Shown here piece by piece: positions 36,165-63,272 of a stretch of 64,000 bases of DNA. A program made the translations under genes and the position numbers. The notes under the pieces are model-generated. The model saw only the letters and a list, made by a program, of their open reading frames with translations, was not told where the DNA came from and did not search any database. Origin of the DNA: Arbacia lixula (lineage: Eukaryota > Echinodermata > Echinoidea > Arbacioida > Arbaciidae); the NCBI GenBank assembly GCA_963669155.1, contig OZ022588.1, positions 4,968,991 through 5,032,990 on the forward strand. The letters run 5' to 3'. Position 1 is the stretch's first letter. Each line of letters starts with the position of its first letter.

Positions 36165-39100
36165 ATGGCAGAATTTGTTCATCAAAGTATCGAGGAAACG
36201 CTGCCAGAACTTGAGCAGCTAGAACGTGTGGGGTTGTTCTCCAAACAAGAAATCAAGTGAGTTACATGTGGCCTGGACATTGAGCAGTTGAGTGTGCCTG
36301 GAAAATACACTCTTGTCTGAGTCTAACTTTGACTCTTTTTTGTCCAAAATATGAAATGATAAGTCTGAACGTTACCCATTGGATTTCCAATAAAGTATGA
36401 TCTTTGATATGAAGACTTAATCTGAAATATCAGTGTTTAAAACCGATGACAGTGCCAGTTGACTTGGAAGTAGAAGAAATTATGAAATAAATTAAATGGC
36501 ATGAATGGGCAGGATTTCATGTCAGACCATCTCGTACTAGACCGAAAAAAATCAGTCTCTGTCGGACGTTGAATCCGCTGAGCTTGCATCTGGCTCCTCT
36601 GAACCCCCCTCTTTTCGGGGATATGTCCAAAACTGATTTCGATTAAAGAATGCCCCGGACTGCTGAATGAGTAATTAATTCCTGTCTAACTACTAAAACT
36701 ATGGTGTCTGAGCGTTTCCCAGAATACGTACCTTTACGGTTCTTGTACGGCAAGGCATTATGGGATGGAATTCTAGTACGCGAGCGTTCAGTGATCGCTG
36801 CGGTCATTGATTACAATGTCATTTTTATGTTACAGATTTGTTACTTTGATCGGTTCCGACGTGATAATTTTCAGTAAATCTGAATTGTATATTTTCGATG
36901 AGAACTTTTGATTTGTATTATTGTATCTAAATAATGATTTATAAAGAGTTTGATGAGAAAATAATAAGCAAAGAGAGAGACATTCGAGACGTCGTCGAGA
37001 CTCGGGTGGTAGTCCCATATGTGCAAAGATGTGTGTGTTGTGATGTGATGTGTGAAATTAAATAAAATAGAATTAAATAAATAAAAAGTACAATAATACA
37101 AATCAAAGTTCTTATCGTTAAAATATCATTCAGATTTACTGAAAGTATTCACGTCGGAACCGATCCACATAACAAATCTGTAACATGAAATAATAATATT
37201 GAACTTCGCGCTCGCCGCGGCTAGCGTCATGAGCGTGTAAACGATATGACCGCAGCGATCGCTGAACGTTCGCGTACTAGAATTCCGTCCCGCCATGCAT
37301 TGCGATGCAAGAACCGTAAAGGCACGTATTCCGCTATTTTTAGAGTTTTGCGATTTTGCAATAGCACAAAGTGAAGACAATGTTCAGATGTTTATTTAGC
37401 ATATCGATTTTCATGATTCACAAGTATTTCCATGCAAAGATATCTGCATCTGAAGTTGGTCACATATTCAGAATCAGATTAAAATTGTGCCGATACATGT
37501 AGCTGTCTGATCACAACTAACTATTGTCCATAGACTGTGTACAACGGATAGATCGTCTGCGCACAGCGATTCGGAGACCGCTGATTGGGCAATCGCGCAG
37601 ATCACGTCATGACCACGTGGTTGCCTTCGGACTGCGTGTGGAAGTATCGATAGCGATAACGATATCCGGTCACATTGTGTATGCAGGAAATGGTCTTGGT
37701 TCGTGATCGGATCGCTCCAGTATTGATCGAAAATTATCGAAACTCTGCAATTTCATGCACATTGACTGACGGTCCTAAAACCCGGAAGCCAATTGACTTT
37801 GTGCACGTTGCAATAGACTCTACAAATTCCAACAAACACGATGCGGGGGTGACGCTAATTCGTACGATTTTGACGGAAAAGCAAGAAGCAATCGAAATTC
37901 GCTTACCTGTGCGGTATCGGTGAGAAAATAGATCCTCTGAGAATACCTTTCAAAATTCATATAAAATATAGGAAAGTGAAATTCTAGGTCGATTTTGGTA
38001 CGAGGTGATAGAGAATTTCACACTTGTTTTGGTGGAAAACTGTGTGGGGACATAGAAGGCTTGCACTGCGCATGCTTACTATATTTTCATTCATAAATTG
38101 GCTCTCGGCAGTGGCTGGATGACGTCATGTAATAAGCAAAAATGGATACGACCGCTAGCGACCACGCTCCGCTATCCGTTGTACACAATTGTTCGTTGTG
38201 CCGATAGTGGCACATTTTGCCTTCCCAAAAATGCAACAGAGTTTACTCAGAGGACGTATCAGGGGGCGGAGTTACGAGTGCGTTGTGCATTGCGCGACGC
38301 AATCACGATCACGTACGTTGCCAAGCTTTGGCTCTAATGCGATTTACCAATCATTCATTTGCGCCCTTGCTCTCGCACGAACGCTGCGGCTGCGCGCACT
38401 GCTAATTCGCTCTCTGCGTATAGCGTTGTTGCCAACAGAAATTGCGCACTCGCCAAGCCTCTAGATTTCGCTTATCTGTACATGGGTATTTTCAAAGTGA
38501 TTTAGCATTGTGATCCCATGTGATCAGCGAAAAAACAATTGCAGCATCGTGTTCAGCATACCCGGCAGCGCCTCGGTCCAGCCGGACAATTTTGTAGCGT
38601 GTTAGATTGCTATTGCGATGCTGTCACTTAGGTGAGCAGCAGTTTCTGATTCTCGCTACCTAAATTATGCGTAGTAAACTTGTCCCTTACATCAAATGAT
38701 TGGAAATCTTCCTCTCTTTCATCCTATATGAATTTCTTAAAATCTGAGTAATCAGATCATATTTTTCTGAGCCTTCAAAGTGGACCTTGCATGCAAAGAG
38801 CGTGTGCCAGTTTTGCTTCACTACGCGACGCACATGGATTTGCGTGCAGTGTGTGTAGTACGTATGGGCAGGGAGCTATCATCTACGGTAGTACTAGTAT
38901 CGCCGACAGTATCGCGCATCCATTCATACACCCTAGTCTAACCGTCTAGCATCTCCAAAATTCACTCTTGCCTGAATGAACTAACTAAATGCAATTTAAT
39001 GATGGGCATCTCACTGGGTTTAAATTAAAAATAAGAATTCAGTTGTTTTAATTATTTTTATCAATGGATGTAGAAATCCCAGCCCATTACAGCAGGTACA

Positions 39101-42100
39101 GTTAGCTCCTTGTGGTCAAGGGTGGTTGGTATTTCTTCTTTCCCATGATGTTGAAGATGTGGTATTGATTACTCATATTCAGAGCCATTGTGAAGAAAAG
39201 GACAGGCTACGAGTACAGACTTGGGCGCCTCAAAAAGAGCAAGGAGGACTTCATGAGATATGTTCAGGTTTGTCCCCATTTCATATTCTTGATTTAAAAA
39301 AAAAAAACGCTCAGGAGCAAGTACCACAAATAGACCACTTTGTGGTTTCGGTCCATAACTTTTGATACCAGTAGTACAAACTTCAAAAGATGCATCAAAT
39401 GAGAGAGCATTCACTTCTTTACAGGATGAATCAAACCAGAACTTGTGGTGATGATTAATATATCTTTTTTCCCCAGCTTATCGATATATGCTGATAACCG
39501 CTTGTTAGAAAAAAGCCAAACCAAATCTGAGCAAGCCTGTTTTGTCATCCTGTGCCGTTTCTCAATTTCATTTTGACATCTAACTTGAGTGGACTGCCAA
39601 TTTATTGCACCCGGACATTCTGTAGCCAACCAAACTGGACATTGAATAACTCATCAAAAATAAGTCTTTGCCACCATATTACTGCATGTGTTAACTGTTA
39701 TATTGCCTGAATTATTTTACAGTATGAAATCAACATTCTGGCTCTTATCAAGAAAAGGAGAGAGGTGAGTGATTTGAGAAGGTCAGAGACAGATTTTTAA
39801 GGTATTTCTTTAGTCATAAAGAAAACCCTGTTATATTGCTAGGCTTCAGCAACAGATAGATAAATCATTAATCGAGTTTACAGAATACTGTATGTGCCAA
39901 GAAGGATTGATATTTCAGATTTTTCAGAGATCTTGTGTCACACTTGACATGTTTAAGCCTTCATTTTAGACCAGGCTAAATGCATACTTCCATGTCTTCT
40001 TTCCCTCATTTTTCTTAATGATGAATTGAAACTAGACACAAAGAGAATAAACTTTTCAGGGCTTCCAGATGATCAAGCAGGAACTATGGTTATACATGTA
40101 CATGTCCATGTTCTCACGAACATTTAGAGCATAATTCAGTGTATTGTATTTCTTACAGAGGAACAACTATTTCCACAAGAGAGAGGAAATTGAAAATGCT
40201 GTCATCTCACGCATTCATCGTTTCTTCAGGGTAAGCATATCATTTTATTTCATTACGAAAATGTAGCAACTTTCTCAGTGGGTATAGCTGTTACATGCAG
40301 AACCTGTGATGATGAAGTGTTATCTTTTTTCCCCAGCTTATCGATATATGCTGAGAACACTGCATCGGAAATAAGCCAAAACAAATCTGAACGGGTTCTT
40401 GCACAATCTTGTGAAGAAGGCAAATCGTTGAGGGGACTATAGCAGCTCAAAGGGATGACACATTGATACCATGGCAATTTTAAATAGACTGGTTTACTAT
40501 GTAGTCAAATTTATGGATGTTTCTTCCCTCGGGGCCTAGTAACGATTTATTCTATTATCCTGTACCTTACAATGATATTTCATTACTTGGAATCCACTTT
40601 GCATACATTAGTTGTTGCTATGTCAGGCAAACCTCGGGCAAGCTTTCTGGTTGTCAGGGGCAACCTTCGTTGCTAGTAAACGGGTCTATTGGCTTCAGAA
40701 TGTCCCTTCAGAGGCTTTGTTTTTTTTTATATTTATTGTTGCCATGGCAAGGAGGAAAAATGTCTGATCGATTTATTTTGCATTTTGTCCTTTTCTTTTA
40801 TATGTAATTATTGCCTGGATGATCTTTCAAAGTTTTTTGTTTGAAATTACAGCCTCTTTCCTACATGTACATGTATGACTTTGACTTCAATCATTGAACT
40901 GATTTGAACTTTCAGCGAGCCTGCACCAAGTTTCCAGATGACATCAAGATCTGGATGTCACATTTGCAGTTCTGCAAGAAATGGGTAAAGCATTCAGTCA
41001 GCATTCATGTGCCATGATATATTTCTACAAATCGCACATAATTTTTTTCACTGATGCAATGTTTAAAAACTTGTATAAGAGAAAAACAGCGACACAAAGA
41101 GTTGGAATGCATCAATTCATTGGATTGATAGTGCTCTTTGTATTTCAGTAACTTTAGCAGATGTTTACCTTTGCTTACTCTTCCACCTCTGGCTCTTTCT
41201 TTGGGACAGGATTCCTATGAACTTGCGATGATGATTTAAATAATCTTTTTTCCCCAGCTTATCGATATATGCTGATAACAACTTGTTAGAAAAAAGCCAA
41301 ACCAAATCTGAGCAAGTTCTTGAAAGGTTTTTAGTGTCCTATATGTATGGCAAATTGTGTAGATCTCTCATGAATAAAAGCTGATAGAAAATCCATGTTG
41401 GCTAGTACTTGCAATATATAACTGTGATGCTTAGTGATACAAGAGTTGCCATGCATTGCAACTCACTATTTGTGATACAGAGCCGCCCGATCTTATAAAT
41501 GTTGACTGTTACTTTGTATTCCATTGACAGGGAAGGTTAATGGAGATGAACCGACTGTATACTAGACTGCTCAAGATTCACCCAAATAACCCAGGTATAA
41601 TTTTTAAACAAATTCTGATTTCATTCATTTTTGTTCTGATGAAGAGAATACACTTTGTATAAGAAAAGAAATATTCTGTACATAAAATGGGAGGATCTAT
41701 TATAGAGTATATTAGTCCAAAAAGGTGGAAAAAGAATACAAGGGGTAACTCATGTTCAAAAGAAATAACAAAAAGGGGGAGGTAAAATGCAAAATCCATT
41801 TTCATGTTCAGTTCAGTTCAGTTGAAAATGTAAATGGAACAGTCATTATGTTGCAAGCTTGTTGTGATGATGTACATCTTTTTTCCCCAGCTTATCGATT
41901 ATGCTGATAACCATCTGAAAATTAAGCCAGTACAAATCTGAACAAGCTCAAGTGATATCTCACCATTTATCTATTTCTTGAAGCTAGAAATAAACCCTAT
42001 ATGAAACATTAAACTAGAATACATGTCATTGTCATTGATTATTTTAGCAGTGATACGTGGAGATAGACTCTGGTGGAAGGGGTATATCCTTACTGTATTC

Positions 42101-45100
42101 GCTACGCAGTTCATTCAGACATTTTTCGCAAGTACGGACAGACCGCATTAACTTAACGTAGTACTGATGTTCGGCCATGTCTGTGCGTATATGGACATTT
42201 TTGCGTTAGATGGACATAAACCATTTTTGCGTAATCGAGACACGCACCCCTCATAGAGCAGTGTATCATGAGAAACGCTTAGGGTTCAGTGTAATGTGGT
42301 TGTAATATTTGTGTAAGTAATAAATTCTGCTAGTTAAGAAAATGATATGCTAACATAATACATGTATGCCTAGTATTACTTGAAAGGTCATGGTTGTGTG
42401 GTGAAAGTTCATCATGTATTTTTTTCCCCGTTTTTGGCGATGACAGGGCTGTGGATCATGGCTGCCAAGTTTCAGCTGGAAGACAACCGCTCAGCGGAGA
42501 ACGCGAGGGCGCTCTTTCTGAGAGCCCTCCGACACCATCCCAAGGACCAGAAGCTCTGGATAGAGGTACATCCTGACATACCAACAAGCTGTTATAGGCT
42601 TTTCTAATGTAATACAAACAGACATTTCTTTTCTGACTGGGGTGAGACAAGCTGGACATATGCTATGCATGCTAGCCGCATATATGCTTAGGTACGCATC
42701 AGAAGAATGAGTATTTGGATTTTAGTCAAGCATTGTACCAATATAGGATTCCCCCTTTAAGTATATGACGCAGCATTATTCTATATTGCGTAAATACTGA
42801 AAAGCAGAGTTTGAGCAATGTTATTATGTTGCCTAATACGCAATATTTTGGTGATTGAACTGGTGTGTTTGTTAGTATGTATATTCCCCTTGTTGTATGT
42901 AATATGAAATATGTTGGTCATTGATTGTTCTTGAATTTTGCCTTCCTTGACATTCCTTTTTTTCAGAGACATCTGATTGATCTTGTTTATTTTCCTTTCT
43001 TGCAGTATTTCAGAATGGAACTTCTACACGCAGACAAGGTATGAAATGAAAGGGTGTCACATTTTACATTCTATTATTGGTATTAGTGTACATTTTAGAC
43101 TTATTTCTTTATGGTGAGGTACTTTCAGAACTTGTGGTGATGATTAATTTATCTTTTTTCCCCAGCTTATCGATATATGCTGATAACCACTCGTTAGAAA
43201 AAAGCCAAACCAAATCTGAACAAGTTCTGGCTGACCTCACCAGCTTTAATTAGTTTTTGTTTGTTTGTTTGTTTGTTTGTTTGTTTGTTTGTTTGTTTGT
43301 TTTTTTTGGGGGGGGGGTTGTCCATCTGAAGATTATCAATTTAAACCAAAGGAAGCTAACATAGATGTGGCAGTAGAAGTGCTCTAATTATAGCTGGTTT
43401 CTATAGTCTGGTTAGTTGTTCCATGCAGTTAGCATCAACAATGAAAGCAAGAAAGCATACCATAGCTTTCTGTGCATATGTGCAAATTTGAGATCTTAAT
43501 CTCACATTATGTTTTGCAAATTGTATCGGTTATGCCATGATTCATGGAATGGCAAAGGAACCAAAATCAATTGTCAAATCATTTTCATGCCTTTCCTACA
43601 AAGTGGCCATATCGCATTATTTTGCCCTTATTGTCCAATTGTGAACTCTGGTGAAGGGATGAAAAATGATTGACAATTCCCATTCTGTTGCAGCTACGGA
43701 AAAGATTGGCTCTTCTGAAGCAAACCAAGATGGACCCGGAAGAAGATGAAGTGGACGACGCCCTCATGAGGGGAGAGTTGGCCAAGCTCGTCTACAGTAA
43801 CGCAATCAAGGAGATGCCAGGTGTGTTACTGAGATTTCAAACTGTGCTTACGTGCAGCCGAGGGCAACGTTTATTTCATGGAAGTGATAGTTATTCATAG
43901 TCCTTTGTCATTGATTGATCTTTGATCGTGTCCTGTTACTCCTCCATTTCATCCTCATCTTAGTGACTGTAGAAAGCATGTGCCATGTTGAAATGGGTTA
44001 ACAGAAATTTTATGAACTTGCGATGATGATTAAATAATCTTTTTTCCCCAGCTTATCGATATATGCTGATAACACCTTGTTAGAAAAAAGCCAAACCAAA
44101 TCTGAGCAAGTTCTTTATTAGATTCATCATTTGTCATTGTATATTTAGTACTTATGTAGGAATGTTACCCCAAGTAACAAAGTTGGTTTCCTGTTGACAA
44201 AATTCATGAAGCACAGCATTGAAAATCTGAGGGTCATCAAGTTAATGAAATCTTACAGTGCAACGTTCCTTTTTCTTCAGTGGTGAGCATTCTCGACTCG
44301 ATACACTGTGCAAAAAGACAATGACAAGTCTTTACAGTAGGCCACACACAGGCAACTAGTAGTGCTTGTGCAATGAAGCCTTCAAAGAAATTAAGTTCCA
44401 CTTTCAGAACTTTTAATAATTCCTAACTTAAAATGATTGTTTTCAAAGTTTTGCACATCTTGTTTTAATATTTGTTTCCTTGTAATGTGACATTTTTCTC
44501 ATGTAGATGATATACCTCTCAGATTTGCATCTCCCATTCATCCAGTACTTTGATTTTATGAAAATCCTTGTGTTTTAATATTAGTTTCCCGGGAATTTTT
44601 CTCGTACAGATGATATACCTTTCAGGCTGGCGTTCCTCCCTGTCATCCAATACTTTGATTTCGCATCACATCTGGAGGCCGCAGTTTATGATGAGTAAGT
44701 GTTTCAAGCTGCATGTGCTGCAAAAAAAAATAAGAGCTTACTGTGATGATTTGAACTTTTTTCCCCAGCTTATCGAATATGCTGATTCACACTTTTTGTT
44801 TTTATAAACCCTATCTAGCCCGCGGGGGGGCAAAAACAGCCCCCCCCCCCCTCTCGATATTTTTCGCAATAAATTTGTAACGCGAAAAGATAACGCCGCG
44901 ACGTTTCATGACTTTTTTCCTTCAAGTCTCCCGCAACTTTTAAGACCAAATTTGAGACGCGGGGGAACACGGTTCCGAAGTTACGTAACATTTTGTATGT
45001 GCATGTCAGACCCAAAATTGCTCAAAAACGTGATTTCATGTACAAATCCAATGCAAATTCTGTATCTAGCCAAAATTCATAAATGTATAATTATATTTAT

Positions 45101-48100
45101 TTTTACTGATGAAAAACAATAGATTTCATGTTATTTATGACTGAAATAGTGTTGCTAACAATTTCCATCGAAAAACAATGAAAAGCATAAAGTCGAAAAA
45201 ACAAAGAAATACATAAGAAATTCAAAAAACAAAATACATCAGAAAAACTTTGATATTGCCATTTTTTAAAATCCTAATTTGATAATAATCCTAAGAAGAG
45301 TGTCTGGACTGATATCTAGCAGTTTTTGGGTTATATTTAAAGATTTACAACCAAATTATGATTTTAATGCATTTAATTAGCATAATTAATTAATTAAAAA
45401 TAAATTTGAATAATTTTGGTGCAATTGAACTGTGGAGATTACGGCATCGGTGACGTACGTGCCAATTTTCGCCGCGATCAACGGTCGAGATCTTAGGGGG
45501 GGGCTGTTTTTGCCCCCCCCCCCCCCCCGGGCTATGCGATTTCAAAATAGCCTGGACTATATAGGGTTAAGCCAATGCAAATTTGAGCCAGCCTATCAGT
45601 ATTATAACTTCTTTTCTATTCCTTCTTTTTCTGTGGTCATCCTGAGTCCTGTTCATTCAGAATCCAGGCCAGCTTTTTATTAATGATAATAATAACGATG
45701 ATAACTTAGCTTTATATCATACGACAAAAGAAGAAAAATGATATCAAACATAACCTAACAATTTTATTATCAACTTGGTTCCACTTGTTTTTCTTGTCCC
45801 TCCCTTTTCCTTCTCCCTGACCTTTCCCCCTTGAACTGTATATTGCTCCTTTCTCTCTTCCCCACAACCCCCTCTCTGTCTCACCCCTCTTTCCTCCCCT
45901 CCCCCTTCTCCCCCCCCCCCCTTTCCTTCCACCCCTGCCATCCCCCTTCTACCCTCTGTGTCTCCTCCTCCTCCCCTTGTCCCTTCCCTCTCTCTCTCAC
46001 TCTCTCTCTCTCTTTCTATTGCCCAGTCTGGAGCAGGACCATGCTGACAAGGACCAGACGTGGAGTGCGCTTGCCAAGAGGCATCTGTCAGATTCTGGTG
46101 AGAACTTGTCTTTCAATTCTCTTATCAGGGATGCAGCCCAATAGACTGACCACGGTTAAGTGTTTATCTGTCTGATGTCTCTCTACACAATTGTACGTGG
46201 CTTCTTCTTGCTCACTCCTAAAAGGAAAATATGATTCTTTTGTTTCATCTAGTAGGGCTACATGGCGATTCAAAACTTAAACACAGATTTGTGAAAGTTG
46301 TTATACATCTAAATTAGCACTCATTGTAAAAAAAAATAATTAAAAAATGCTTCTGTATGCATTTCTACATATGGTTTTATTTTGGATTTTGGAGCGTCTT
46401 CATGAAAGTGAATAGGGACTTTTCGATTGGGTGAATGAGAGTGATGTGACGCCCGGCGGCAGGTGGATGTCAACGCGTTTACTCCCTACGATGAGCCGCT
46501 CCTGAAATGCGTTTCGATTTCGGGCGTCACTTCTAGTCAACGTAGTGACGTCATGGCCCCTGTGGCCCGCGTGGCAATCGCTGATCTCCCCACTGATTGC
46601 AATACGTATACGGGCGCGGTTAAAATGTATATGTGGGACTGTAGTGTGCATTTGCAACTTGCTAGACGACAGAGCAAACAGGTACCTGATAGGCTGTAGT
46701 TGGTACGTCAGTGGTGCTCATGTTAAGTGAGAAGATGATGAACTTTCTGGTAATATAGCTATTTATATTTTGTTTTAAAAAATAAATGGAAAAATCGTTG
46801 AACTTCCCACTGATTTGCTGTAACTCAGCATAATCTTCCTCCGGCACCGTCCATATCGAGAGGAGTATGACGTCATAGACAGCACGGGATGAGCCCGGCG
46901 CGAGTGAATTGGGTGGTCAGTGAAAACCTGGGTAAACGCGTTGAGCCGAGGGGTCGACGTTGGCGCATGCGCGGTGCGTAAAAGTGACATCATTCACGGT
47001 GACGCCTGGCAGCACGTCCAAATCGAAAGGTCCCTATTATTAAATGTTGATCGATGTTCTCCAGGTACTGATGCTGAAGTCTGGTCGTGTGAGCTGAACT
47101 GTCATGCCGTCTTTGACGAGGCATTGCAGAGGGTCCCGAGTCTTGAACTGTGGACCCACTATGCAGACACCTGTGTTGAGAGACTGGAGCTTGAATCTTC
47201 TCCTGCTATCAGCAAAAAGGTGAGTTGGCATGGTAACTGCCTCTGCCTGGCTACTCTCCTCTCTGCATGGAAGAGAGCATGACCTGTACAAGTGGACAAC
47301 AGCAGTAACACATAGTTCTTAAGTCAAGTGTCATTTTGAATGTCCTTCCTAAATATTATCACATTATAAGACAGACCTTTTCAAGGAAACCAAAGAACTT
47401 CAGAATAATACTGTAGGATTTATTGAAGACAATTCCTTTCATCGGTCATTAATGTTTGAGTAGGAAGTATTCAGTCCTAAAGAGTTGAAGTTGATTGTGT
47501 TGTCCAATTGTTAGATATATTTATCTGGTTTGATTAGCATCCTATGTGTAACTGGACGTCCGTTCTCAGTCGGTTAGTCCATTAAGGGATGGATGCTACA
47601 GTAAATCTAGGCCTGACCTGCCATTATCTGATTGAAGAATCAATTTCTCAGTCAGCGTGTAGGTCAGCCCACATCTCATTCATCTTGTGTTGATACATCA
47701 TTTAGAAAAGTGCGACAATGTGTTTCGCGAATGTTGTACATCAACATTTCATGCACATTTTAGATCATATATTCATTGACTCTTACATCTCATTCATCTT
47801 GTGTTGATTCATCATTACGAATAGTGTGACAATGTGTTTCGCAAATGTTGTACATCATACATTTCACGCACATTTTAGATCACATTCATTGACCCATAAT
47901 GTGAGTGTGTGGCACCGGTCAGTTGGACAATGTCCAATAAGAGAAACTCACGCTTGAATGAAGTCTAGAACCAGAAATATTCATTACAGTGAATGTGACA
48001 AACACCGCTTTGTTGCTCTATCACACTTGAGCAATCATAGCATAAAACCCACTACCCATAGTGAACAGTTCTGAATTATTTAGGTACAATTCTGTGATTA

Positions 48101-51100
48101 ATATTTTGCTTTCTTTTTCACAGCGTGCAGCTAAAGCGATTTCTGTCTTTGAAATGGCTCAGGAGAAGATTGAACTTGCAGAGGGCATGTTTCACAAATG
48201 GGTAAGTAGCAAGTGGTAAACTTGAATGTTTTGTGCATGTTTTAGTGGATCCCCCCCCCCAAAAAAAAGGGTCTAAAGTTAGTTTTCGTGCCTGATTTAG
48301 ATGCATGTGGGACATAGAATTGATGGAAGAGGAAGGATAACAAAGTGGTGGGGAGATGCTAAGGTATGACTTTGCTTTGGAGGTATCATGATGATGATTT
48401 TGTTCTTTTTTCCCCAGCTTATCGAAGATGCTGATAACCCTGTGAAATTTAAGCCAGTACAAATCTGAGTGAAACCTCCATGAGAAGGCAGTGTTTGTAC
48501 CTAGTTATATTTAACACCGATAACAAGAAATGCAGAGGAATAGAGAGCAATTTGCCCTTTCTACTTTCCAACTGAACCATTGATATATGGCTGAAGTGGT
48601 CGCAATAGTCAAATGTCAAAGAGAAGGTCAAAAGTGAAATAGCAAACTTCCTAAGAAATACTCTGCCAGTTAGTGTAGCCCATTTCCAGTTCGTAACAAG
48701 ATTGTGAAGATTCCAAAGATAAATTTTAGAACTGGAAACCGGCAAGCAGAATTTCATTGACCGACTATGAATGTAGGCTATAGTGGCCACAAAATGTGCG
48801 GAATTCAAACTAAAGTAAGGCGAATCTTTCACTTCTGAAAAGGTTGGTGAAGCTCTGGCTGGGCCTTCAGATTATCTCTAAAGATACTAAGTGTAGGGCA
48901 TGTGTTGTTCTCTAACCCAGGTGGAAGTGGTGAAGAGGCATGGTGCTGGGGACAAGGCACTAGAGGTCAGTCAGAGGTCAACTGAAGTTCATCCCAGGTC
49001 AGTGACCCTGTGGGTTCAAAGGCTACTCATGGTCATGCAGCAAGAAAGTGAAGGTAAGTTGAGGTCATACTTATGTTAACTATTTTTTTTGTAACAACAA
49101 TGTAAAAGTGTCAAATTACTTCCACTGAACTCTTTAATTCATGCAAAATATTTTTGTTACAAAAAAGTTATCTCCGAATCTTTTATTGCGGCCCAAATTG
49201 TATTATAAATGCTGTTCCCCAGTCGATATCTGTGCTTCTAGGTGTTACAACAAACCTTTTGACACTTATGAAAAATGATCAAAATTACAACTCAATCAAG
49301 CTGAAATTGACACATAGTCATAGGATGGCAAATTTTTCTTAAGCAGATTTTGTGACATTTCATTTAAATTATTATTCTTGTAATTTTCCTTGGCATATTT
49401 AATTAGATTTTCACTTTTGGAGAAATACAGACCTAACAATGTGTGTATGAAGAAATTTATTCAGAACACAACAATGACCATTGTGTATCACACATGTCAA
49501 TCCACTAGCAACTACCATTACAGTGTCATTGATAATGCATGATGCTTCTTGCAAAAAAAACCTTGTGGGTGCAGTATCAATAATGCCATTCCGCCTCTTC
49601 TTCACTATCAGACCTTGAGCAGTTCAGGTTAGAAGTCCGGGAGGTGTTCGACAGCGCAGTTTCTCACGTCAAATCAAAAGTAAGTGTGCTTCATCGAAAT
49701 TGCCAGTACAGTTAACCCTTTGTGTGCTTCTCTTATGGGATGTGCGGGAATTACTGTTGAAAAAATCCATAAGTGACACTTTAAAGGTTAACTCACATCA
49801 TATTGTTAGGGTGCTCTTTGGAGATCAGAGGAATTAACAAGCAGTATTTGACTATCAGGAGACTAAAAAAAAAATGTGTGAAAATACTGAGGTTTGCAAA
49901 AGAGATCATATATTTGATTCTACCTTCCATTGCAAAGTTGAAATTGGAACTGCAAATCTAGAGGTTATGAAACCTACTCAAAATGTTGTGTTACCTTCGA
50001 AGAGTAAGTTATAGTCGGAATAGTAATATCAAATCTAATAGATTCGTCACTCAAAATGTTGTTACCTAAGAAGACTAAGTGATAGTAAAAATAGTAATAT
50101 TAACTCAAATTGATTTATTATGAAAATGAATTATCTTGCTGTTAGTTTTTGTTGTGCAAATGTAGACCATGAGAACTTTACTGTGATGATTCAATATTTT
50201 CCCTCATCTGAGCATACCTTGCTGAAATGGGATTAACACGGTACTTTATTTGTCTGAGTAAAGTTCTGAAGAAAAAAGTACATAACTACGATTTTAACTT
50301 GTGTGATTTCGTGGCAATTGCTTAATTTGCATTCTTTTTATTTCCTTCAGAACTCGTTGGACATCTGGAACATAGGGCTTGAGTGGTGTTTGACAAATGA
50401 CACGGACAATATCCAGAATCTGTTTGAGGTGAGTCTTCCTCTTTGTTACTCTCTTCTTTTTTATGCCTCCACAAAAATGTTGCCATACAGCATTGTTTTC
50501 AGGTTCTTCCTTGACTATTACACTTCCTCGCTTCATTGTATTCCTTTTGCCTTTCTTTTTCACTCCTTCCTTTGTTACCTTGGTGTAAGTTTGAAGGGCA
50601 GAGGAAAATATCACTCCCTTGTATTTGTATCAGAATATTTTTTTCCCATCTGAATTGTATCAAACATTGGAGAGATAACCCCTTTATGTACAACAGATCA
50701 GCTGAAACAAGCAATTCATGATGACTTTGTTTTCAAGTTGCGGATTACTTCTACCATGAAAACTTTACTGTGATGATTAAATATTTTCCCTCATCTGAGC
50801 ATACCTTGCTGAAATGGGATTAACACGGTACTTTATTTGTCTGAGTAAAGTTCTCATGTCCCTGCATTCTCCTCTCTTAAAAAGCTTTTCGATCTGGACA
50901 ATGGTTGCCAACTCTTTATTAATTGAATTGAATTTATTAATAATTTGACCATATACGACATCCTAGGGACATGCTCCGTATAAAATCTAGTTAAGAGAAC
51001 GTTGACCACAATTGCCGCAACAGCCCCCTTGGCGAAGCGTGCTACAGTCCAGCCTGCCTTCACCGTAGTCACTACCATTTGTTACTGGCCCTGTCAGTGT

Positions 51101-54021
51101 CCCATGCCGTACTGCAGACTCCAAATACCCCAGCCTGATCAGGGTTGATGGTGGTTAAGTTAAGATGGATATGTTGTTGAAGGCCTTCCAATCCAATAGA
51201 ATACTGAAACATGAGCAGGATAAGCCAACTGGAGGGTGTTTCACCAAGCTGTTCGTAAGTTACAAACGACTTTACGAACGACTGGTGATCCCTTCTTGTG
51301 CTAAATGTGATACCACACTATGTTCATTGAGAATCTGATTTAGCACAAGAAGGGATCACCAGTCGTTCGTAAAGTCGTTTGTAACTTACGAACAGCTTGG
51401 TGAAACACCCCCTGGTCCTACACTTTGTGGCTAGAGCAAACAGCAGAACCAGAAGCTTGATAAACAACTAATGTGACTATGCTGCGTCTGCACTGTATAT
51501 TTGAATATGTTTTTATTTCTCTCGTCTTCTTCCATGTTTCTCTTGTTGTGTAGAGTGGGCTGAAAGAACACAAATCTGTCTCACTGCCTCTGAAGATTCG
51601 CTATCTTGAATGGACCGCACTCGCCAAGGGAATCGGCAAAGCCAGGAAGCTCTACAAGAGGTAATGCAAGTATTCTTCTAATGGGACAATGCACATGGGG
51701 TTCATTGTTTTGTGATACGTCTGACAATGATATGGTCCATGCTTGCTGTGATGATTTTTATCTTTTTTCCCCAGCTTATCGATATATGCTGAGAAACCCT
51801 CTTATGCAATTTGCATTAAGCCAGTACAAATCTGAGCATGTGATGGATCAGTCAATAATTTTAGGTTTGAGACAGCGGACAATAGATAGATGGTTCCTGT
51901 ACTTGTGCATGACCTTTCTTATATTCCTTTACATCATTACATGAAAATGGAGCTTGTATTTTCTTTGCATTTCTTACATGTTGATAATCTGATAATTATA
52001 GCATGTAAAGACAGACACTTCCATTTTAATCAAAGTACATTTTGAAATGATGAATGCAATAAAACTATATAAATGAAAAATGTTATTCAATAAAATTTAA
52101 TTTATGTTTGTCATTGCTTCAGAATTGCAACAGAGAAGCCACTGAGTGTTGAATTCTTCACACGGTACATCGCCCTGGAAGAAGCCCAGGTACGTGAATG
52201 AGCGAACCTTTCAAAGGATTGCATTACATTTTTATCTCTGCATGGGGCTGGGGCAACATCCATGAACGACAACACCTAATCACAGGGGCCCTGTCTGTTC
52301 AGTGTTCAGGTCTTAGTATGTCTGATGTACTTGTACTATGTAGCAAATATAACTCTTCTGAGATCAACATGTATAGGTGACACCTGTGTTTTGCAGGTAA
52401 TTAAAAATGTCTACATTCAATCGAACCTGTGTGGCATTTTGCGTAACAGTACATACATGTCAAGCAACACCTTCTAGGCCTTGCTAGTATTTACCAGTGC
52501 ATGGAAGAGAAAAGAAAATGGATTCCTATCATATTTTGATTGATGTTGTACGATGGATATGGATAATCCACACTTGCTGTGATGATTTTTATCTTTTTTC
52601 CCCAGCTTATCGATATATGCTGAGAAACCCTCTTATGCAATTTGCATTAAGCCAGTACAAATCTGAGCATGTGTCGGATCAGTCTGAAACTTAAAAATAG
52701 TTCCATTTTGTTTTTACTTCTGCTGTGGAAGTGTACACTCATTTCAGATGTTGCATATGTTTACTAAATAAGTCATCAATAACATGACTTCAGTAAGCTT
52801 CCTTATGGGATATTGTGATACCAAAACGATGTCATTATTGCCAAAATTAATTGATAATTATCCATCGCTGAACATTGTTTTTGCTGAATGATTTTTCTTC
52901 AATAATTTTTTCAAATTATGATTTTCAAAGAAAAGAGTTGGGGTCCAACACAGATGATTAAATGTTTGTATGGTGTTGTTTTTACAGGGTATTACAGAAA
53001 AGTCTGTAGATCATGTTGTAATTTTTGCTTTCTTGCGTGTCACAGCCCAACCCGAAGCTGAAGAGGATCTCAGAGGCCTACGAAGAAGCCCTCAAGGACT
53101 TTGGAGAAACCTCACCAGGTAAGTCCCATTGTGGTGTCCCAACATAGAGGGCAATGTGATTTTTAGGCCCCATTTCACAGTCAGTCATGAATATGTATCA
53201 CAGAAGTTTATTGAAAATCAATATTAACTTCTAATGGATATTGAAAGTAACTTTTACAGATCTGTTTTAACAGATGTACATATTTGATTGCAATAATGAG
53301 AAATGTAATGATTTATGATAAAAAGGGATACAACGTAAGAGGGCAATATATAATCACAGTCATTAGTTTATCTTTATCAAATAGAACTTAAAAGTTAAGA
53401 GAGTCCTCGATTGTGACTTTCAATTCTCTTTTATTTTCTGCCTCTATCTCTCTCACTCTGTCACTCCCTACCTCTCTCTTACATCTTTCCATCTCTCCCC
53501 TTTCCCCCCCCCCCCTTTCTCCCCCCCCCCCCCTCTTTCTCCCCCCTCTTATTCCCCCTCTCTCCCCCTCTCTCCCCCTCTCTCCCCCTCTCTCCCCCTC
53601 TCTCCCCCTCTCTCCCCCTCTCTCCCCCTCTCTCCCCCTCTCTCCCCCTCTCTCCCCCTCTCTCCCCCTCTCTCCCCCTCTCTCCCCCTCTCTCCCCCTC
53701 TCTCCCCCTCTCTCCACTCTCTCCCCACTCTCTCCCCCTCTCTGCCCCCCTCTCCCCCCCTCTCTCTCCCCCTCTCTCCCCCTCTCTCCCCCTCTCTCCC
53801 CCCTCTCTCCCCCCTCTCCCCCCCTCTTATCCCCCGCTTTCTCTCCCCTCTTTACAGGCCTGTGGCTAGACTACATCCAGCATGAGATCACTCACCCTGA
53901 GGGCAGCCCAGGCAAGGCTATGCAACTTCACTGGAAGGCCATGAAAACGTTGGATGGAACGTGCATAGAGGACTTCACCAATGGCTACACACTCTTACAG
54001 ACACAGGACATTGGGGACTGA
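36165..54021 (+). CDS. UTP6: UTP6, HAT-repeat component of the U3 snoRNP / SSU processome
   Basis: UTP6 is a nucleolar scaffold of the small-subunit processome needed for early 18S pre-rRNA cleavage. Twenty coding exons join in phase: 36165-36256, 39183-39267, 39723-39764, 40159-40230, 40916-40984, 41531-41594, 42447-42565, 43006-43038, 43694-43820, 44610-44694, 46027-46097, 47065-47219, 48124-48201, 48921-49053, 49612-49679, 50351-50428, 51554-51660, 52123-52189, 53046-53118, 53858-54021. They give 593 residues (human 597). The N-terminus has the family signature LPELEQLERVGLFSKQEIK. Half-a-TPR (HAT) helices follow, for example LWIMAAKFQLEDNRSAENAR and ALFLRALRHHP. The end has LWLDYIQHEITHPEGSP. 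Twelve introns carry box C/D snoRNA-like sequences, so the gene also appears to be a snoRNA host. Confidence 0.96.
36536..36700. mobile_element. Second copy of the TAGAC-end MITE
   Basis: Sequence from TAGACCGAAAAAAATCAG to CCTGTCTA matches the element at 35126-35283 with substitutions and a small internal deletion. Target duplications are no longer clear. Confidence 0.75.
36716..37345. mobile_element. About 630-bp foldback element in UTP6 intron 1
   Basis: The left arm contains ACGTACCTTTACGGTTCTTG, TCGGTTCCGACGTGA and TCAGTAAATCTGAAT. The right arm holds their inverse (ATTCAGATTTACTGA, TCACGTCGGAACCGA, CAAGAACCGTAAAGGCACGT). Arms exceed 200 bases each with divergence. No coding capacity. 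Confidence 0.85.
37470..38960. other. CpG-rich part of UTP6 intron 1, possible old inverted element
   Basis: TGTGTACAACGGATAG near 37535 is inverted as CTATCCGTTGTACACA near 38170. The surrounding CpG-dense sequence (CGATAGCGATAACG, TGACGTCAT) differs from the AT-rich neighbourhood. No exon or RNA gene is recognised. Confidence 0.4.
39439..39540 (+). ncRNA. Box C/D snoRNA-like, UTP6 intron 2 (family 1)
   Basis: C box GTGATGA at 39448-39454 and D box CTGA at 39527-39530. The terminal stem is short (CTTG with CAAG). The family core TTTTTTCCCCAGCTTATCGA is followed by ATATATGCTGA, where ATGCTGA may be a C' box. The D-box guide region reads AAGCCAAACCAAAT. Confidence 0.83.
40300..40398 (+). ncRNA. 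Box C/D snoRNA-like, UTP6 intron 4 (family 1)
   Basis: GAACC at the start pairs with GGTTC at the end. The C box is GTGATGA at 40306-40312 and the D box CTGA at 40387-40390. The family core is intact. The D-guide region AAGCCAAAACAAAT is slightly different from the other copies. Confidence 0.83.
41219..41319 (+). ncRNA. Box C/D snoRNA-like, UTP6 intron 5 (family 1)
   Basis: GAACTTGC pairs perfectly with GCAAGTTC as the terminal stem. The C box is CGATGATGA-type, the core TTTTTTCCCCAGCTTATCGA is intact and the D box CTGA is at 41308-41311. One of the best-formed copies; near identical to the intron 9 copy. Confidence 0.87.
41856..41948 (+). ncRNA. Box C/D snoRNA-like, UTP6 intron 6 (family 1, short form)
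   Basis: AGCTTGTT pairs with AACAAGCT. The C box is GTGATGA and the D box CTGA at 41938-41941. After the core the sequence shortens to CGATTATGCTGA. The D-guide is AAGCCAGTACAAAT, shared with the intron 13, 17 and 18 copies. Confidence 0.84.
43128..43227 (+). ncRNA. Box C/D snoRNA-like, UTP6 intron 8 (family 1)
   Basis: GAACTTG pairs with CAAGTTC. The C box is GTGATGA, the family core is intact, and the D box CTGA is at 43216-43219 with guide region AAGCCAAACCAAAT. A (TTTG)n microsatellite follows at 43253-43300. Confidence 0.86.
43253..43318. repeat. (TTTG)n microsatellite followed by a G run
   Basis: About twelve TTTG units in UTP6 intron 8, ending in T and G homopolymers. Confidence 0.95.
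44014..44113 (+). ncRNA. Box C/D snoRNA-like, UTP6 intron 9 (family 1)
   Basis: The terminal stem GAACTTGC with GCAAGTTC is perfect. The C box lies in GCGATGATGAT, the core is intact, and the D box CTGA is at 44102-44105. Nearly identical to the intron 5 copy, so one is a recent duplicate of the other. Confidence 0.87.
44735..45590 (+). pseudogene. Box C/D snoRNA-like copy in UTP6 intron 10, split by a transposon
   Basis: The 5' half at 44735-44807 has the C box GTGATGA, core CTTTTTTCCCCAGCTTATCGA-type and ATGCTGA. The 3' half resumes at 45568 with TAAGCCAATGCAAAT and a degenerate D box TTGA. The 760-base insertion between them is flanked by TAA. With the degenerate D box and the interruption it is unlikely to yield a normal snoRNA. 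Confidence 0.8.
44808..45567. mobile_element. 760-bp inverted-repeat element inside a snoRNA copy
   Basis: The ends ACCCTAT and ATAGGGT are inverted, with TAA directly outside both. Inner inverted blocks include GGGGCAAAAACAGCCCC on the left and GGGGCTGTTTTTGCCCC on the right, with long C/G runs. The 3-base TAA duplication fits PIF/Harbinger-type non-autonomous elements. No coding region. Confidence 0.8.
45780..46018 (+). repeat. Extended pyrimidine tract before UTP6 exon 11
   Basis: About 240 bases are almost only C and T, ending just before the acceptor TATTGCCCAG at 46017-46026. It may act as an outsized polypyrimidine tract. Confidence 0.85.
46411..47038. mobile_element. 628-bp terminal-inverted-repeat element touching UTP6 exon 12
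   Basis: AATAGGGACTTTTCGATT on the left is inverted as AATCGAAAGGTCCCTATT on the right. Further inverted CG-rich motifs (AACGCGTTTAC with GTAAACGCGTT, GTGACG with CGTCAC) lie inside. It ends 26 bases before exon 12 (47065), so the branch point or pyrimidine tract of this intron is very close to, or inside, the element. Confidence 0.85.
47640..47905. repeat. Direct duplication of about 120 bp in UTP6 intron 12
   Basis: ACATCTCATTCATCTTGTGT starts each of two copies (about 47670 and 47786), which continue through GACAATGTGTTTCGC and ATGTTGTACATCA. Confidence 0.8.
48379..48479 (+). ncRNA. Box C/D snoRNA-like, UTP6 intron 13 (family 1, short form)
   Basis: GGAGGT pairs with ACCTCC, a different stem from the other copies, as expected if the stem is under compensatory selection only. 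The C box is ATGATGA, the core TTTTTTCCCCAGCTTATCGA is intact, then AGATGCTGA. The D box CTGA is at 48465-48468, guide region AAGCCAGTACAAAT. Confidence 0.84.
50173..50266 (+). ncRNA. Box C/D snoRNA-like, UTP6 intron 15 (family 2)
   Basis: AGAACTTTAC pairs with GTAAAGTTCT. The C box is GTGATGA and the D box CTGA at 50254-50257. A likely D' box is CTGA in TCATCTGA, with guide region ATATTTTCCCTCAT. The region before the D box is GGTACTTTATTTGT. Different sequence from family 1. Confidence 0.85.
50755..50858 (+). ncRNA. Box C/D snoRNA-like, UTP6 intron 16 (family 2)
   Basis: Nearly identical to the intron 15 element from the C box to the D box (CTGA at 50841-50844). The terminal stem extends to CATGA plus AACTTTA pairing with TAAAGTT plus TCATG around one mismatch. 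Confidence 0.85.
51234..51410. mobile_element. Near-perfect 177-bp foldback MITE in UTP6 intron 16
   Basis: Two 73-base arms are inverted copies essentially without mismatch, from GGGTGTTTCACCAAGCTG to its inverse CAGCTTGGTGAAACACCC, around a 31-base loop. CTGG occurs next to both ends as a possible target duplication. Low divergence suggests a recent insertion. Confidence 0.92.
51738..51840 (+). ncRNA. Box C/D snoRNA-like, UTP6 intron 17 (family 1, hairpin form)
   Basis: CATGC pairs with GCATG. The C box is GTGATGA, the core is intact, and the D box CTGA is at 51832-51835. Between ATGCTGA and the D-guide lies a small hairpin (TTATGCAA with TTGCATTAA). Nearly identical to the intron 18 copy. 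Confidence 0.86.
52570..52674 (+). ncRNA. Box C/D snoRNA-like, UTP6 intron 18 (family 1, hairpin form)
   Basis: ACAC-TGC pairs with GCA-GTGT with one mismatch. The C box is GTGATGA and the D box CTGA at 52663-52666. The internal sequence is the same as the intron 17 copy, including the TTATGCAA / TTGCATTAA hairpin. Confidence 0.86.
53490..53850 (+). repeat. (CTCTCTCCCC)n minisatellite ending UTP6 intron 19
   Basis: More than 300 bases of a CTCTCTCCCC decamer and variants run almost into the acceptor CTCTTTACAG at 53848-53857. The last intron therefore has a giant pyrimidine tract. Confidence 0.95.
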
Positions 54022-54290
54022 ATCCGTGTGTGAACACACTAAAAACGTTGGACAGATCGTGCAAATGAACATTGAAAATGTTAGATGGGGATATGCGTAG
54101 AGGACTTTACCCGATGGCTACACACTGTTACAGATACAGGACATTGAGGACTGAAGCTTTGTGTGAACACACCAGAAACGTCAAGTTTGTGAAGATGAAC
54201 ATTTTGAAAAGTGGTGTAACAGACATCAACTTCAGCTATATGCTGACACCAGTCACGAGGGTCTGAAATTGTGTGGGCACACATTAAAAA
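53940..54290 (+). repeat. Tandem copies of the UTP6 C-terminal coding end
   Basis: The last coding stretch with its stop (ACCAATGGCTACACACT to GGACATTGGGGACTGA, then GTGTGAACACAC) is repeated at about 54072-54172 in the 3' UTR (CGATGGCTACACACT, GGACATTGAGGACTGA). A weaker third copy ends near 54285. Confidence 0.88.
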
Positions 54291-54480
54291 CTGTTTCTTT
54301 CAACAATTACATGCTTCTGTGCAGATCATTCAAGTAGCATGAAAACAGATCTTAGTAGTGACTGACCAATATCAGGTGGAGATTTGTTTTGAGTTGGCAA
54401 TAGCAGTCAATGGTCATTATGGCAGTCTTTGCAAAATTGCAAGATTGTATAGACAGATGCATTAAATACCCTATGCCTCC

Positions 54481-54708
54481 CTTGGGAGTTGCAACTTCTA
54501 TTTAGTGGCCAGTCCTATTTGGAGTAGCAATTCCTGAAATTCTGCTTAGTGGCCAGCCCTCCTTGGAGTAGCAATTCCTGAAGTTCTGTTTAGTGGCCAG
54601 CCCTCCTTGGAGTAGCAATTCCTGAAGTTCTGTTTAGTGGCCAGCCCTCCTTGGAGTAGCAATTCCTGAACTTCTGTTTAGCGGCCAGCCCTCCTTGGAG
54701 AAGCAATG
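54481..54708 (+). repeat. 44-bp minisatellite in the UTP6 3' UTR region
   Basis: About five units containing GTGGCCAGCCCTCCTTGGAG and AGCAATTCCTGAAGTTCTG lie in tandem. Confidence 0.92.
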
Positions 54709-54974
54709 GGAGGAAGACTTCCCTAGTCGAAACAAATTCTCAAAATTCAGAATAGGAGTCTTGACTGGTAGACTAGCATTTGTACGGTATACGCTATGAA
54801 TGGTTCCATCTCCTCGTTGATCCTTGAACTGTTATCTACAGATGTCAAAGCTACAAATAGTTATCAATTGATTGTATCTATCAAAACGATATTCATGAAA
54901 ATGAGAAGTCTTGTCAAAAATAAACACTTCATAGTGAAACAGATTAGCACATATTTGTTCATGTTCATGTATTA

Positions 54975-55195
54975 CTGTATGCACCATATATTTCTCGGGG
55001 GGGGGGGGGGGGGGTTATTTTCACGAGTCGGATGCTATTCACAAATATAACAACATGCGAAACTATGAATACGACATGCACGAGCTCATAAACTAATACA
55101 TGTAGTGCTAGTACTCCACAATCGCGAGTTTAACCACTTTCGAAATTGTCGAAGTCCTGATTCGCAAAATTTGACTCGAGAAGTATTTGGTGTAG
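54975..55195. mobile_element. Diverged copy of the 19238 MITE family
   Basis: GTATGCACCATATATTTCTCG at the left, then CTAGTACTCCACAATCGCGAG and GATTCGCAAAATTTGACTCG, match the 19238-19465 element in reordered diverged form. A G homopolymer interrupts the left end. Confidence 0.55.
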
Positions 55196-55239
55196 TATTA
55201 TAGTATTAGCATAGTATTTGAACTATCACTTCAGTGTGT

Positions 55240-57190
55240 GTTACAGTAGAATGTGAAGGAGTGGGAGTAAAACTAAGAGAGATAAAAGAATGGGAGGAGA
55301 TTGGTAGAGTGAGACAGATTGAGGGAGAGTGGATAATAAGACAGGAATTTGTTAGTGTGTAAGACGGGAGGGGGGGGGGGGGGCTCGAGATTAACCCTCG
55401 AGTGCCAGATAACTTCTTGCTCTATGGGAATTGAGTGAATTATTTTTGAGGAAAGTCACATGTTGCACTCTAAGAGTTGAAAAAAGAATGATACAGAGAG
55501 ATTGAGAAAGGGCGGAGGACGAGATGGGAGATACAGAGAGGGTGAACGGAGCTCAAGAGACGAGAGATAAAACCAGTGGTGGAAAGAGAGTAGAGACTGG
55601 AGAGGACGTGGTGCGAGATTGGAAGAGGGTGTAGAGAGGAGAGATTGACAGATGGTGAAGAGAGGATGGTACAGATCCTGGGAAGAGTAGGCTGGAGAGA
55701 GAGAGATGGAGGGTAGAAGGGAGAAGGATGAGGGAAGGTGGGAGAGAATGCAAGTTGGTTATGACAGAAGCGAGAGGGGGATGAAGAGAGTAAAGGGGGA
55801 TAAAGAGGGTAAATTGTGATATAGAAGGCTAGACATGGTCGCTGAAGGTAGAGTGGGAATGTTTAGGTCTGGAATGGAAGAGTGAACATGGGTGAATGAA
55901 GGAGTTAAGATAGAGGGTGAAGATGGGAGAGGAAACTGGAGAGGTTGAGAGAATTCTGAAAGAGAAGAGAAAGTAATACATGTACCAAAGAGCGGTGAGA
56001 GATTGGAACGGCAAAGAATGAGAGAGAATGGGATGTGTTCGAAGGAAAGAGGACAGGGTAGCCCTTTTGCAGGTCTTAAAAAAAACATTTTGCAAAAAAA
56101 AAAACACGAAAAATAGAAGAAAGTACTGTATATATTTATGAAATTTCCCTTTCAATAATAGAACTGGAAATTGACTTAGAGCGGAATTATATTGATTGCT
56201 ATATTTCAAGCAGGTTTTGGACGGGTCGTCAAAATCTGTAGCCTAAAGACCAGAGAACACAATACTAGTACGCAATAGCGCACGTCGCGGTTTTTCGCAT
56301 CGCTCAGTGATGCGTTTAGGCATATGGTATACTAGTATGAATGTAGACCATGGTCGCTATGTTTCAAACGTTTTTCCTCGAAAGTTCGTGAGGCTAGGAT
56401 TCTGAGACTTCATACATGTTATAGTTCGGGTGTAGTTGGGTTTCATGACTTTTATAAATGGGCTTCCTTGTCTTTAAAGAGAGGGGGAGCTAGGCGACAG
56501 TAATTAGATCTGGCAGAAGGAACGCAAGCGGAAGTGGGGAGAGGTTACCAGACCGGGGAGGGAAAAATGGAAGGAAATGGAGCTAGTTCAGAGATAAAGC
56601 GGGTCTGGTGGGATAACGGAGGGAGGTGAGAGAAGAAGAAAGCGAGGGTTTTTACTTTTTAGAAAAGAAAGGAGAGAGAATAAGAAAAGCTGGGCTTTAG
56701 AGAAGAAAGGAGACAGTGGAGTAAAATGGAAGGAAATGGAGCCAGTTCGGAGATACACGAGTCTAGAGGGATAATGGAAAGAGGAAGTAGGTGAGAGAAG
56801 AAGAAAGCGAGCGCTTTAGAGAAGAAATGAGACGGGGGTGGGAGGGGTGGGGCGTGGGGGGAGAGCTGGTTCATAGATACACGAGTCCGGAGGGATAATG
56901 AGAAGATGTGGTGAGAAAAAAGTGATGGATTTAGAGAAGAAAGGAGGGAAGAACGGGGGCATGGGAGGGGGTGGGATGAAAGGGAAAAGAGCAAGTTAAG
57001 AGATACACGAGTCTGGATCTTATAATGGGAAGATGAGGTAGGTGAGAGAAGGAGAAAGCGAGGGATTTAGAGATCGATAAACGGACAAGAAAGGAGACAG
57101 TGGGAGATAATGGAAAGATGAGGCAGGTGAGAGGAGGGAGAAAGCGAAGGCTTTAGAGATTAACAGAGCAGAACGGAGACAGCGGAGATG
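55240..57190. repeat. Purine-rich low-complexity region with diverged 100-130 bp units
   Basis: The plus strand is dominated by GAGAGA/GGAGA-type sequence. From about 56490 on, diverged units recur with GAGAAAGCGAGG, TTTAGAGAAGAAAGGAGAC and TACACGAGTC motifs. A unique 250-base island (56210-56460) interrupts it. No coding or RNA feature is supported. Confidence 0.7.
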
Positions 57191-62900: not shown

Positions 62901-63272
62901 TTAGAAGCGGAGATATAGGAAAATATGTGTTTATGGCGGCCATTTTGAAAAATGGCTGCCATTTCGGCATTTTGTGCTCAGTTCAGCATACCGAAATGTG
63001 TTTTATTTGATTCCTTGTCCCTGAAAATGTATTTTCAGCACTTAAAATCAAAGTTCTACGCTATTTAGAAACAGATTCATAGGGAAATATTAGATATATG
63101 GCGGCCATTTTGAAAAATGGCCGCCACGGAACTTTCCACCACCTGGATTCCTTAAGAGTTTTGATATGTTATAGAGGACATTTTTCTGAGTCCAAAACAC
63201 TTCACAGACTTTCTGTTGCAATTAGTGGGAGGTTGACCCCTTTTTTTTTTTCACAAAATGCCTGGACTATAT
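59949..63272. mobile_element. 3.3-kb inverted-repeat element made of about 165-bp units
   Basis: The outer arms (about 165 bases each: 59949-60115 and 63098-63272) are inverted copies. They share CCTCCCACTAATTGCAACAG, AATGTCCTCTATAACATATC and AAGTTCC next to TGGCGGCCATTTTT. Between them run many units of about 165 bases, each with the palindromic patch TGGCGGCCATTTT / AAAATGGCCGCCA, CGATATCTCCGCTTCTA and GTGAAGTGCTAAACATA. Units point one way from 60060 to about 62440 and the other way from there to 63120. No coding region is visible. Confidence 0.88.

Follow-up and report, generated by a model that had tools for sequence, protein, structure and literature searches.

UTP6 very probably serves as a multi-snoRNA host for SNORD12, with nine copies intact and a tenth split by an insert; the family is predicted to guide at 28S rRNA helix 73. 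The initial annotation had proposed that a family of intronic box C/D snoRNAs was amplified within UTP6, and this proposal is supported by the boxes, the covarying terminal stems, the placement of one element per intron on the host strand only, and an Rfam match, all within the 64-kb stretch of DNA analysed here (the window). Judged by sequence and predicted structure, the family is SNORD12 (HBII-99; yeast snR190, fission yeast snR107). The family is a known one; UTP6 as its host, and its copy number there, are unusual.

A SNORD12-like family in the introns of UTP6

The host gene had already been named as UTP6, an identity borne out by Pfam domains in its product (UTP6_C, 189 bits; U3_assoc_6, 53 bits) and by a structure match of that product, human UTP6 in PDB 7mq8 (7mq8_LP, 389 bits). 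Exons 2–20 have GT-AG borders throughout and encode an in-frame product of 562 residues; exon 1, which lies across a first intron of 2926 bases, was located by tblastn with the human N-terminus as query.

Within this gene, a 14-base core (CCCCAGCTTATCGA) has ten mismatch-free matches between 39471 and 52613, all on the plus strand and each in a different intron, and every intron number given in the initial annotation agrees with our gene model (Table 1). The next match in the window, and the only other one within 3 mismatches, lies at position 28753 with 3 mismatches; this makes 11 matches at that tolerance versus 2.84 expected, a count that none of 100 shuffles reached. We found no further family copies elsewhere in the window, and the core had 0 matches in viral contigs. 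A C box and a D box (RUGAUGA and CUGA in this snoRNA class) had been claimed for every element: the C box TGATGA is indeed present in all ten, and the D box CTGA in nine, with copy 7 reading TTGA behind a 760-bp insert. That insert is transposon-like, the 5′ part of copy 7 ends in the target duplication TAA (44805–44807), and the empty site reads ...TTTTTATAA joined to GCCAATGCAAATTTGAG, with TTGA as its D box. The tally of ten copies therefore stands for the core, and as snoRNAs the set becomes nine intact members and one split by the insert.

Alignment of the nine intact copies reveals no change in the C box, the guide, the D′ region (CTTATCGA), the C′ box TGCTGA, AAGCCA, or CAAATCTGA. The second guide (ASE2) comes in two forms, i.e., form A (AAGCCAGUACAAAU) in copies 4, 8, 9, and 10, and form B (AAGCCAAACCAAAU) in copies 1, 3, 5, and 6, with a one-base variant of the latter in copy 2. 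No base differs between copies 9 and 10 over the stretch from C box to D box.

Table 1. UTP6, its intronic snoRNA copies, and associated elements in the window (C, D, and D′ are box positions; "own model" is the covariance model built here; Rfam bits refer to SNORD12 unless another family is named).
Feature	Position in gene	Coordinates	Strand	Boxes	Evidence and remarks
UTP6 host gene, 20 coding exons		36165–54021	+		Translations and splice signals
UTP6 exon 1		36165–36256	+		tblastn E 6e-11, plus sequence MAEFVHQSIEETLPELEQLERVGLFSKQEIK
UTP6 exon 2		39183–39267	+		Gene model
UTP6 exon 20		53858–54021	+		Gene model
Copy 1, SNORD12-like C/D snoRNA	Intron 2	39437–39539	+	C 39449, D 39527	Rfam 26.7 bits; own model 117 bits
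Copy 2	Intron 4	40298–40400	+	C 40310, D 40387	Rfam 28.2 bits; own model; motif scan
Copy 3	Intron 5	41217–41321	+	C 41229, D 41308	Rfam 28.5 bits; own model; motif scan
Copy 4	Intron 6	41855–41949	+	C 41865, D 41938	Rfam 44.8 bits (above cut-off of 43); motif scan
Copy 5	Intron 8	43126–43229	+	C 43138, D 43216	Rfam 30.1 bits; motif scan
Copy 6	Intron 9	44012–44114	+	C 44024, D 44102	Rfam 28.6 bits; own model; motif scan
Copy 7, 5′ part	Intron 10	44735–44807	+	C 44744	Rfam 30.6 bits; own model 51 bits
Transposon-like insert in copy 7, 760 bp	Intron 10	44808–45567			Terminal inverted repeats ACCCTAT...ATAGGGT, flanked by TAA/TAA
Copy 7, 3′ part (GCCAATGCAAATTTGAGCC)	Intron 10	45571–45592	+		AAGCC-type guide; altered D box TTGA; own model partial, 12.6 bits, E 2.6
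Copy 8	Intron 13	48380–48479	+	C 48392, D 48465	Rfam 46.6 bits, highest of all copies
Copy 9	Intron 17	51737–51850	+	C 51749, D 51832	Rfam 23.7 bits (snoZ103, 25.0 bits); own model
Copy 10	Intron 18	52568–52681	+	C 52580, D 52663	Rfam 28.2 bits; own model
x1, second C/D type	Intron 15	50172–50267	+	C 50184, D′ 50208, D 50254	Rfam 34.5 bits, E 8e-4, below cut-off; motif scan
x2, second C/D type	Intron 16	50759–50854	+	C 50771, D 50841	Rfam 28.6 bits, E 0.034; motif scan

The initial annotation could not match the guide to a known snoRNA and suggested an Infernal/Rfam search. Here its guide is recognized as that of SNORD12, from such a search and from the pairing with 28S helix 73 described below. 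At the gathering threshold (43 bits for SNORD12, RF00581), the whole window yields two matches, both to SNORD12 (copies 8 and 4). In E-value mode, applied to positions 37500–56000 only, SNORD12 ranks first among the families for nine copies out of ten (E 4e-7 to 0.12), with snoZ103 slightly ahead in copy 9. The eight copies below the cut-off score 23.7–30.6 bits, and the seven intact ones among them align with the two above it. A covariance model built here detected nothing beyond the known elements below E 0.45 in the window.

Three tests addressed the terminal stems. The stems quoted in the initial annotation are present in the sequence, and its observation that stems differ between copies yet still pair was examined across the nine intact copies and 12 pairs, against 500 shuffles and slid registers. 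Overall, 76.9% of cells are paired, and 10 of the 12 pairs change on both sides versus 5.5 ± 1.4 in shuffles (0/500 as high) and at most 5 after sliding the register; the count of further pair types, which discriminated least, was 18 versus 13.9 in shuffles and was reached by 13/500. When the 45-nt flanks of 11 elements (the nine intact copies plus x1 and x2) were swapped, cognate duplexes averaged −23.8 kcal versus −15.9 for swapped ones, with none of 20000 permutations as low, although the cognate partner ranked first among the 3′ flanks for only 5/11 elements and among the 5′ flanks for only 4/11. Against shuffled flanks, 9 of the 11 elements beat at least 291/300, e.g., copy 5, which has an extra outer stem (TGGTGAGGT/ACCTCACCA) and a flank duplex of −34.9 kcal (0/300 as low). 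These patterns reveal the terminal stem expected of a box C/D snoRNA, with the signal weak against shuffles for copies 9 and 10 (matched by 23/300) and, by eye in the alignment, some stem pairs missing from copy 1. Finally, a scan of both strands of the window that ignored the core and sought only a C box, a D box, and a stem of at least 6 pairs returned seven elements—copies 2–6, x1, and x2—all on the plus strand and all in UTP6 introns, and nothing else; copies 1, 8, 9, and 10 have stems of fewer than 6 pairs, and copy 7 offers no D box in range.

The predicted target in 28S rRNA

In all nine intact copies, the first guide (ASE1) and its neighbour (UCUUUUUUCCCC) can form 12 pairs (11 Watson-Crick, 1 G-U) with the LSU rRNA stretch GGGGAAAGAAGA of helix 73. 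The LSU reference used here, L001, is a eukaryotic LSU stretch from a bacterial bin and not from the source species; the Rfam LSU_rRNA_eukarya consensus also contains GGGGAAAGAAGA. If CUUA, which begins two bases further down, is taken as D′, counting five bases back from it leads to the base that pairs with the third G following a C. Passages of the yeast study name C2392 and G2395 as target positions (PMC8536666), and since the C preceding four Gs is the only one followed by a G at a distance of three bases, the position corresponds to the known snR190/SNORD12 site. Provided that C2392 is that C in the numbering of PMC8536666, D′+5 falls on the equivalent of G2395/G3878, for which the cited passages give human G3878 and fission yeast G2483 (PMC11971394) and, as the Neurospora entry, 26S-Gm2357 (PMC2780460).

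Complementarity of ASE1 is not decisive taken alone, because a shuffled 11-base version reaches 11 pairs somewhere in L001 in 12/500 trials and a 14-base version, with 12/14 at the target, is tied by a second place at L001 1774, a position outside the Rfam LSU match (L001 1–1750). For ASE2, no long pairing was found near the ASE1 site (6–7 pairs), and its best in L001 was 10/14. Reference patterns for LSU domain I (three patterns) and domain V (one) had 0 matches in viral contigs.

If the copies are expressed, each UTP6 intron with a snoRNA would, once spliced out, be pared down to what the terminal stem and the C/D proteins hold, and a single transcript could supply as many as nine copies of the same guide. 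The guide preceding D′ would then pair with helix 73, which adjoins the peptidyl transferase centre, and direct fibrillarin to methylate the G that corresponds to G3878 of human 28S. Perhaps early pre-60S folding would also be aided, as it is by snR190 and snR107 in yeasts, and the copy number may raise the dose. Mammalian intronic C/D snoRNAs do best when placed ~70–80 nt from the 3′ splice site; the corresponding distance here is 93–709 nt (eleven elements). Passages of a review describe U74 as made without splicing and in need of an extended external stem (PMC12205218), and by analogy outer stems such as that of copy 5 may play this part. Nine natural variants of one guide with differing stems offer useful material for studying how stem and intron position affect snoRNA output.

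Known relatives and two elements of a second type

In the Rfam alignment, vertebrate SNORD12/12B/12C (HBII-99, U106) share the C box, ASE1 (CUUUUUUCCCC), and D box with the UTP6 copies, and C′ reads UGUUGA in the SNORD12 model versus UGCUGA in the latter. Vertebrate SNORD12 is likewise intronic with several copies per host, as far as the cited passages go: three copies in the lncRNA ZFAS1 in human (PMC11971394), and in a chicken table four isoforms listed for 28S-G-3388 in introns 1–4 of one EST host (PMC2653536). The UTP6 array differs in its host, its nine intact copies, a D′ read as CUUA, a variable loop after C′, and two ASE2 classes, and it is larger than the chicken cases (at most 5 isoforms in those passages). 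Budding yeast snR190 and fission yeast snR107, as described in the source passages, share the helix 73 target and two-guide layout, though unlike the intronic UTP6 copies they are encoded upstream of U14. The same passages describe snR190 as non-methylating and as carrying a second guide, 15 nt long, for domain I; copy 1, the sole main copy tried, gave no sign of such a guide (7 pairs with a 23-nt domain I stretch).

The analysis places a previously unmatched guide in SNORD12 and adds a host gene not encountered for this snoRNA in the literature searched. In the open-access literature we found no account of UTP6 as a snoRNA host (the sole match concerned transposon silencing), and among the matches listed, no title or abstract opened on SNORD12 in UTP6 introns and none brought UTP6 and SNORD12 together; UTP6 and snR190 co-occur in a review of RNA helicases. 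WDR43 is also known as UTP5. A host of this sort is familiar, as chicken WDR43 also carries 28S snoRNAs (passages of PMC2653536).

Beyond the ten elements of the initial annotation, we recognized two further C/D snoRNAs, x1 and x2 (within 50166–50267 and 50753–50854), which are 98% identical over 102 nt, read CUGA at D′, and have terminal stems of 10 and 8 pairs, respectively. SNORD12 is the best Rfam family for both, each below the cut-off (positions 37500–56000), and the covariance model built here recovers them at E 0.03 (x1) and 0.017 (x2). Aligned with the main copies, they surpass most shuffles chiefly against copies 3, 6, and 8, and the signal is weak or absent against copies 1, 2, and 5, a pattern compatible with possible kinship to the main SNORD12 copies.

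What x1 and x2 might target was considered with ACAAGTACCGTGAGGGAAAGTTG, a 28S stretch chosen from ~4 kb of LSU. Their two guides fit neighbouring parts of 28S domain I, one with 12 pairs, 10 of them Watson-Crick, and the other with 10 pairs, values reached by shuffled guides in 8/1000 and 27/1000; as the stretch was chosen from ~4 kb, we estimate the joint chance at perhaps a few per cent. Against the 23-nt domain I stretch, the only one compared, x1 forms 12 pairs and x2 forms 10. Passages of PMC6929656 give ACAAGTACCGTGAGGGAAAGTTG as a 28S primer stretch. In L001 one x1 guide reaches 10 pairs and the other 14, nine of them Watson-Crick in each case; we take this as noise, yet it shows that such lengths occur elsewhere. 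We tentatively raise the idea, which we think rather doubtful, that x1 and x2 are array paralogs retargeted after duplication, whereby the D′ guide would have moved from helix 73 (GGGGAAAGAAG) to domain I (GUGAGGGAAAGU) and the D guide gained 10 pairs with the adjoining AAGUACCGUG, such that both would clamp one continuous stretch. Were this so, the UTP6 array would show duplication, transposon damage, and guide switching of one snoRNA side by side, and the two candidates would allow a test of how a guide changes target once duplicated.

Spread of the copies and competing explanations

All twelve elements lie on the host strand in twelve different introns, with a chance of 0.0028 for separate introns. 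In BLAST comparisons between introns, similar stretches among the intact copies span 57–129 nt, all over the snoRNA and its stems, and this confinement holds even for 98% pairs (copies 3/6 and x1/x2), which argues against duplication of whole introns. Nor did retroposition with target duplications find support in the flanks, where the longest direct repeat in 11 elements was 8 nt, a length reached by 16/200 shuffles. The farther flanks of nine copies gave best local scores of 12 on each side versus shuffled maxima of 11 and 10, so close to those maxima that a faint remnant of flank kinship is possible. Copying of the unit by retroposition or gene conversion would fit these data, as would older duplications with decayed flanks. 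As parallels in the literature, passages on chicken and nematode snoRNAs describe intragenic duplications with paralogs in the introns of one host, and those on mammalian snoRNA retroposons describe copying of the snoRNA unit; the UTP6 array differs from these in that no target duplications were found in it.

Such retroposons (known in mammals from passages of PMC2832892), and the resemblance of ~100-nt units without clear shared intron sequence past their ends to inserts, lend some appeal to the view that the copies are a dispersed repeat, SINE-like or otherwise, which inserted into UTP6 several times. A repeat of this kind would not be expected to settle one per intron and always on the host strand, to keep boxes and guide in particular, or to covary in its stems; together with flanking repeats no longer than chance, the absence from the 64-kb window of copies in both orientations or outside host introns, and the lack of further matches to our covariance model noted above, this makes the explanation very improbable. 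Still harder to credit is that the core serves UTP6 as an intronic element, for splicing or otherwise, and is not part of a snoRNA: its pyrimidine run followed by CAG does look like a 3′ splice site, but in the nine intact copies the D box sits 192–525 nt ahead of the real one, and the core is embedded in a C-to-D unit that has terminal stems and matches SNORD12. Somewhat more plausible, albeit unlikely, is an array of one or two working SNORD12 genes among decaying duplicates, which would suit the insert-split copy 7 with its altered D box, the comparatively weak flank pairing of copies 9 and 10, and the stem pairs missing from copy 1. Decay, however, sits poorly with a C box, D′ region, C′ box, D box, and full ASE1 unchanged in nine copies whose flanks are largely unalignable, and with double changes that preserve stem pairing. 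On balance, we favour a host gene with nine intact SNORD12 copies.

Several other features occur in the window. Intron 12 of UTP6 contains two ~110-nt tandem units, 90% alike (47671–47893), which we considered as structured RNA and rejected, since their folding does not stand out from that of shuffles (z 0.45 and 0.16). Intron 16 contains a self-folding inverted repeat of 180 nt (90%; 51234–51410) that holds Rfam mir-7 matches on both strands (51261–51383; ~42 bits, cut-off 51.8); given their position within it, a mobile inverted repeat is likelier than a microRNA gene. A second ribosome-assembly gene, a SURF6-like frame on the minus strand (25344–26144; Pfam SURF6, 38 bits), lies ~10 kb from UTP6. 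Elsewhere we noted a Roquin ROQ domain (1955–2527; Pfam, 148 bits), a hAT-type transposase C-terminal dimerisation region on the minus strand (28378–30075; 22 bits) with a 42-bp tandem repeat inside its frame (29557–29886), a 44-bp unit repeated 4.8 times ~0.5 kb past the UTP6 stop codon (54496–54707), and three arrays of ~165-bp units (60078–63126), the first of which carries the palindromic ATGGCGGCCATTTTCCAAAATGGCCGCCAT.
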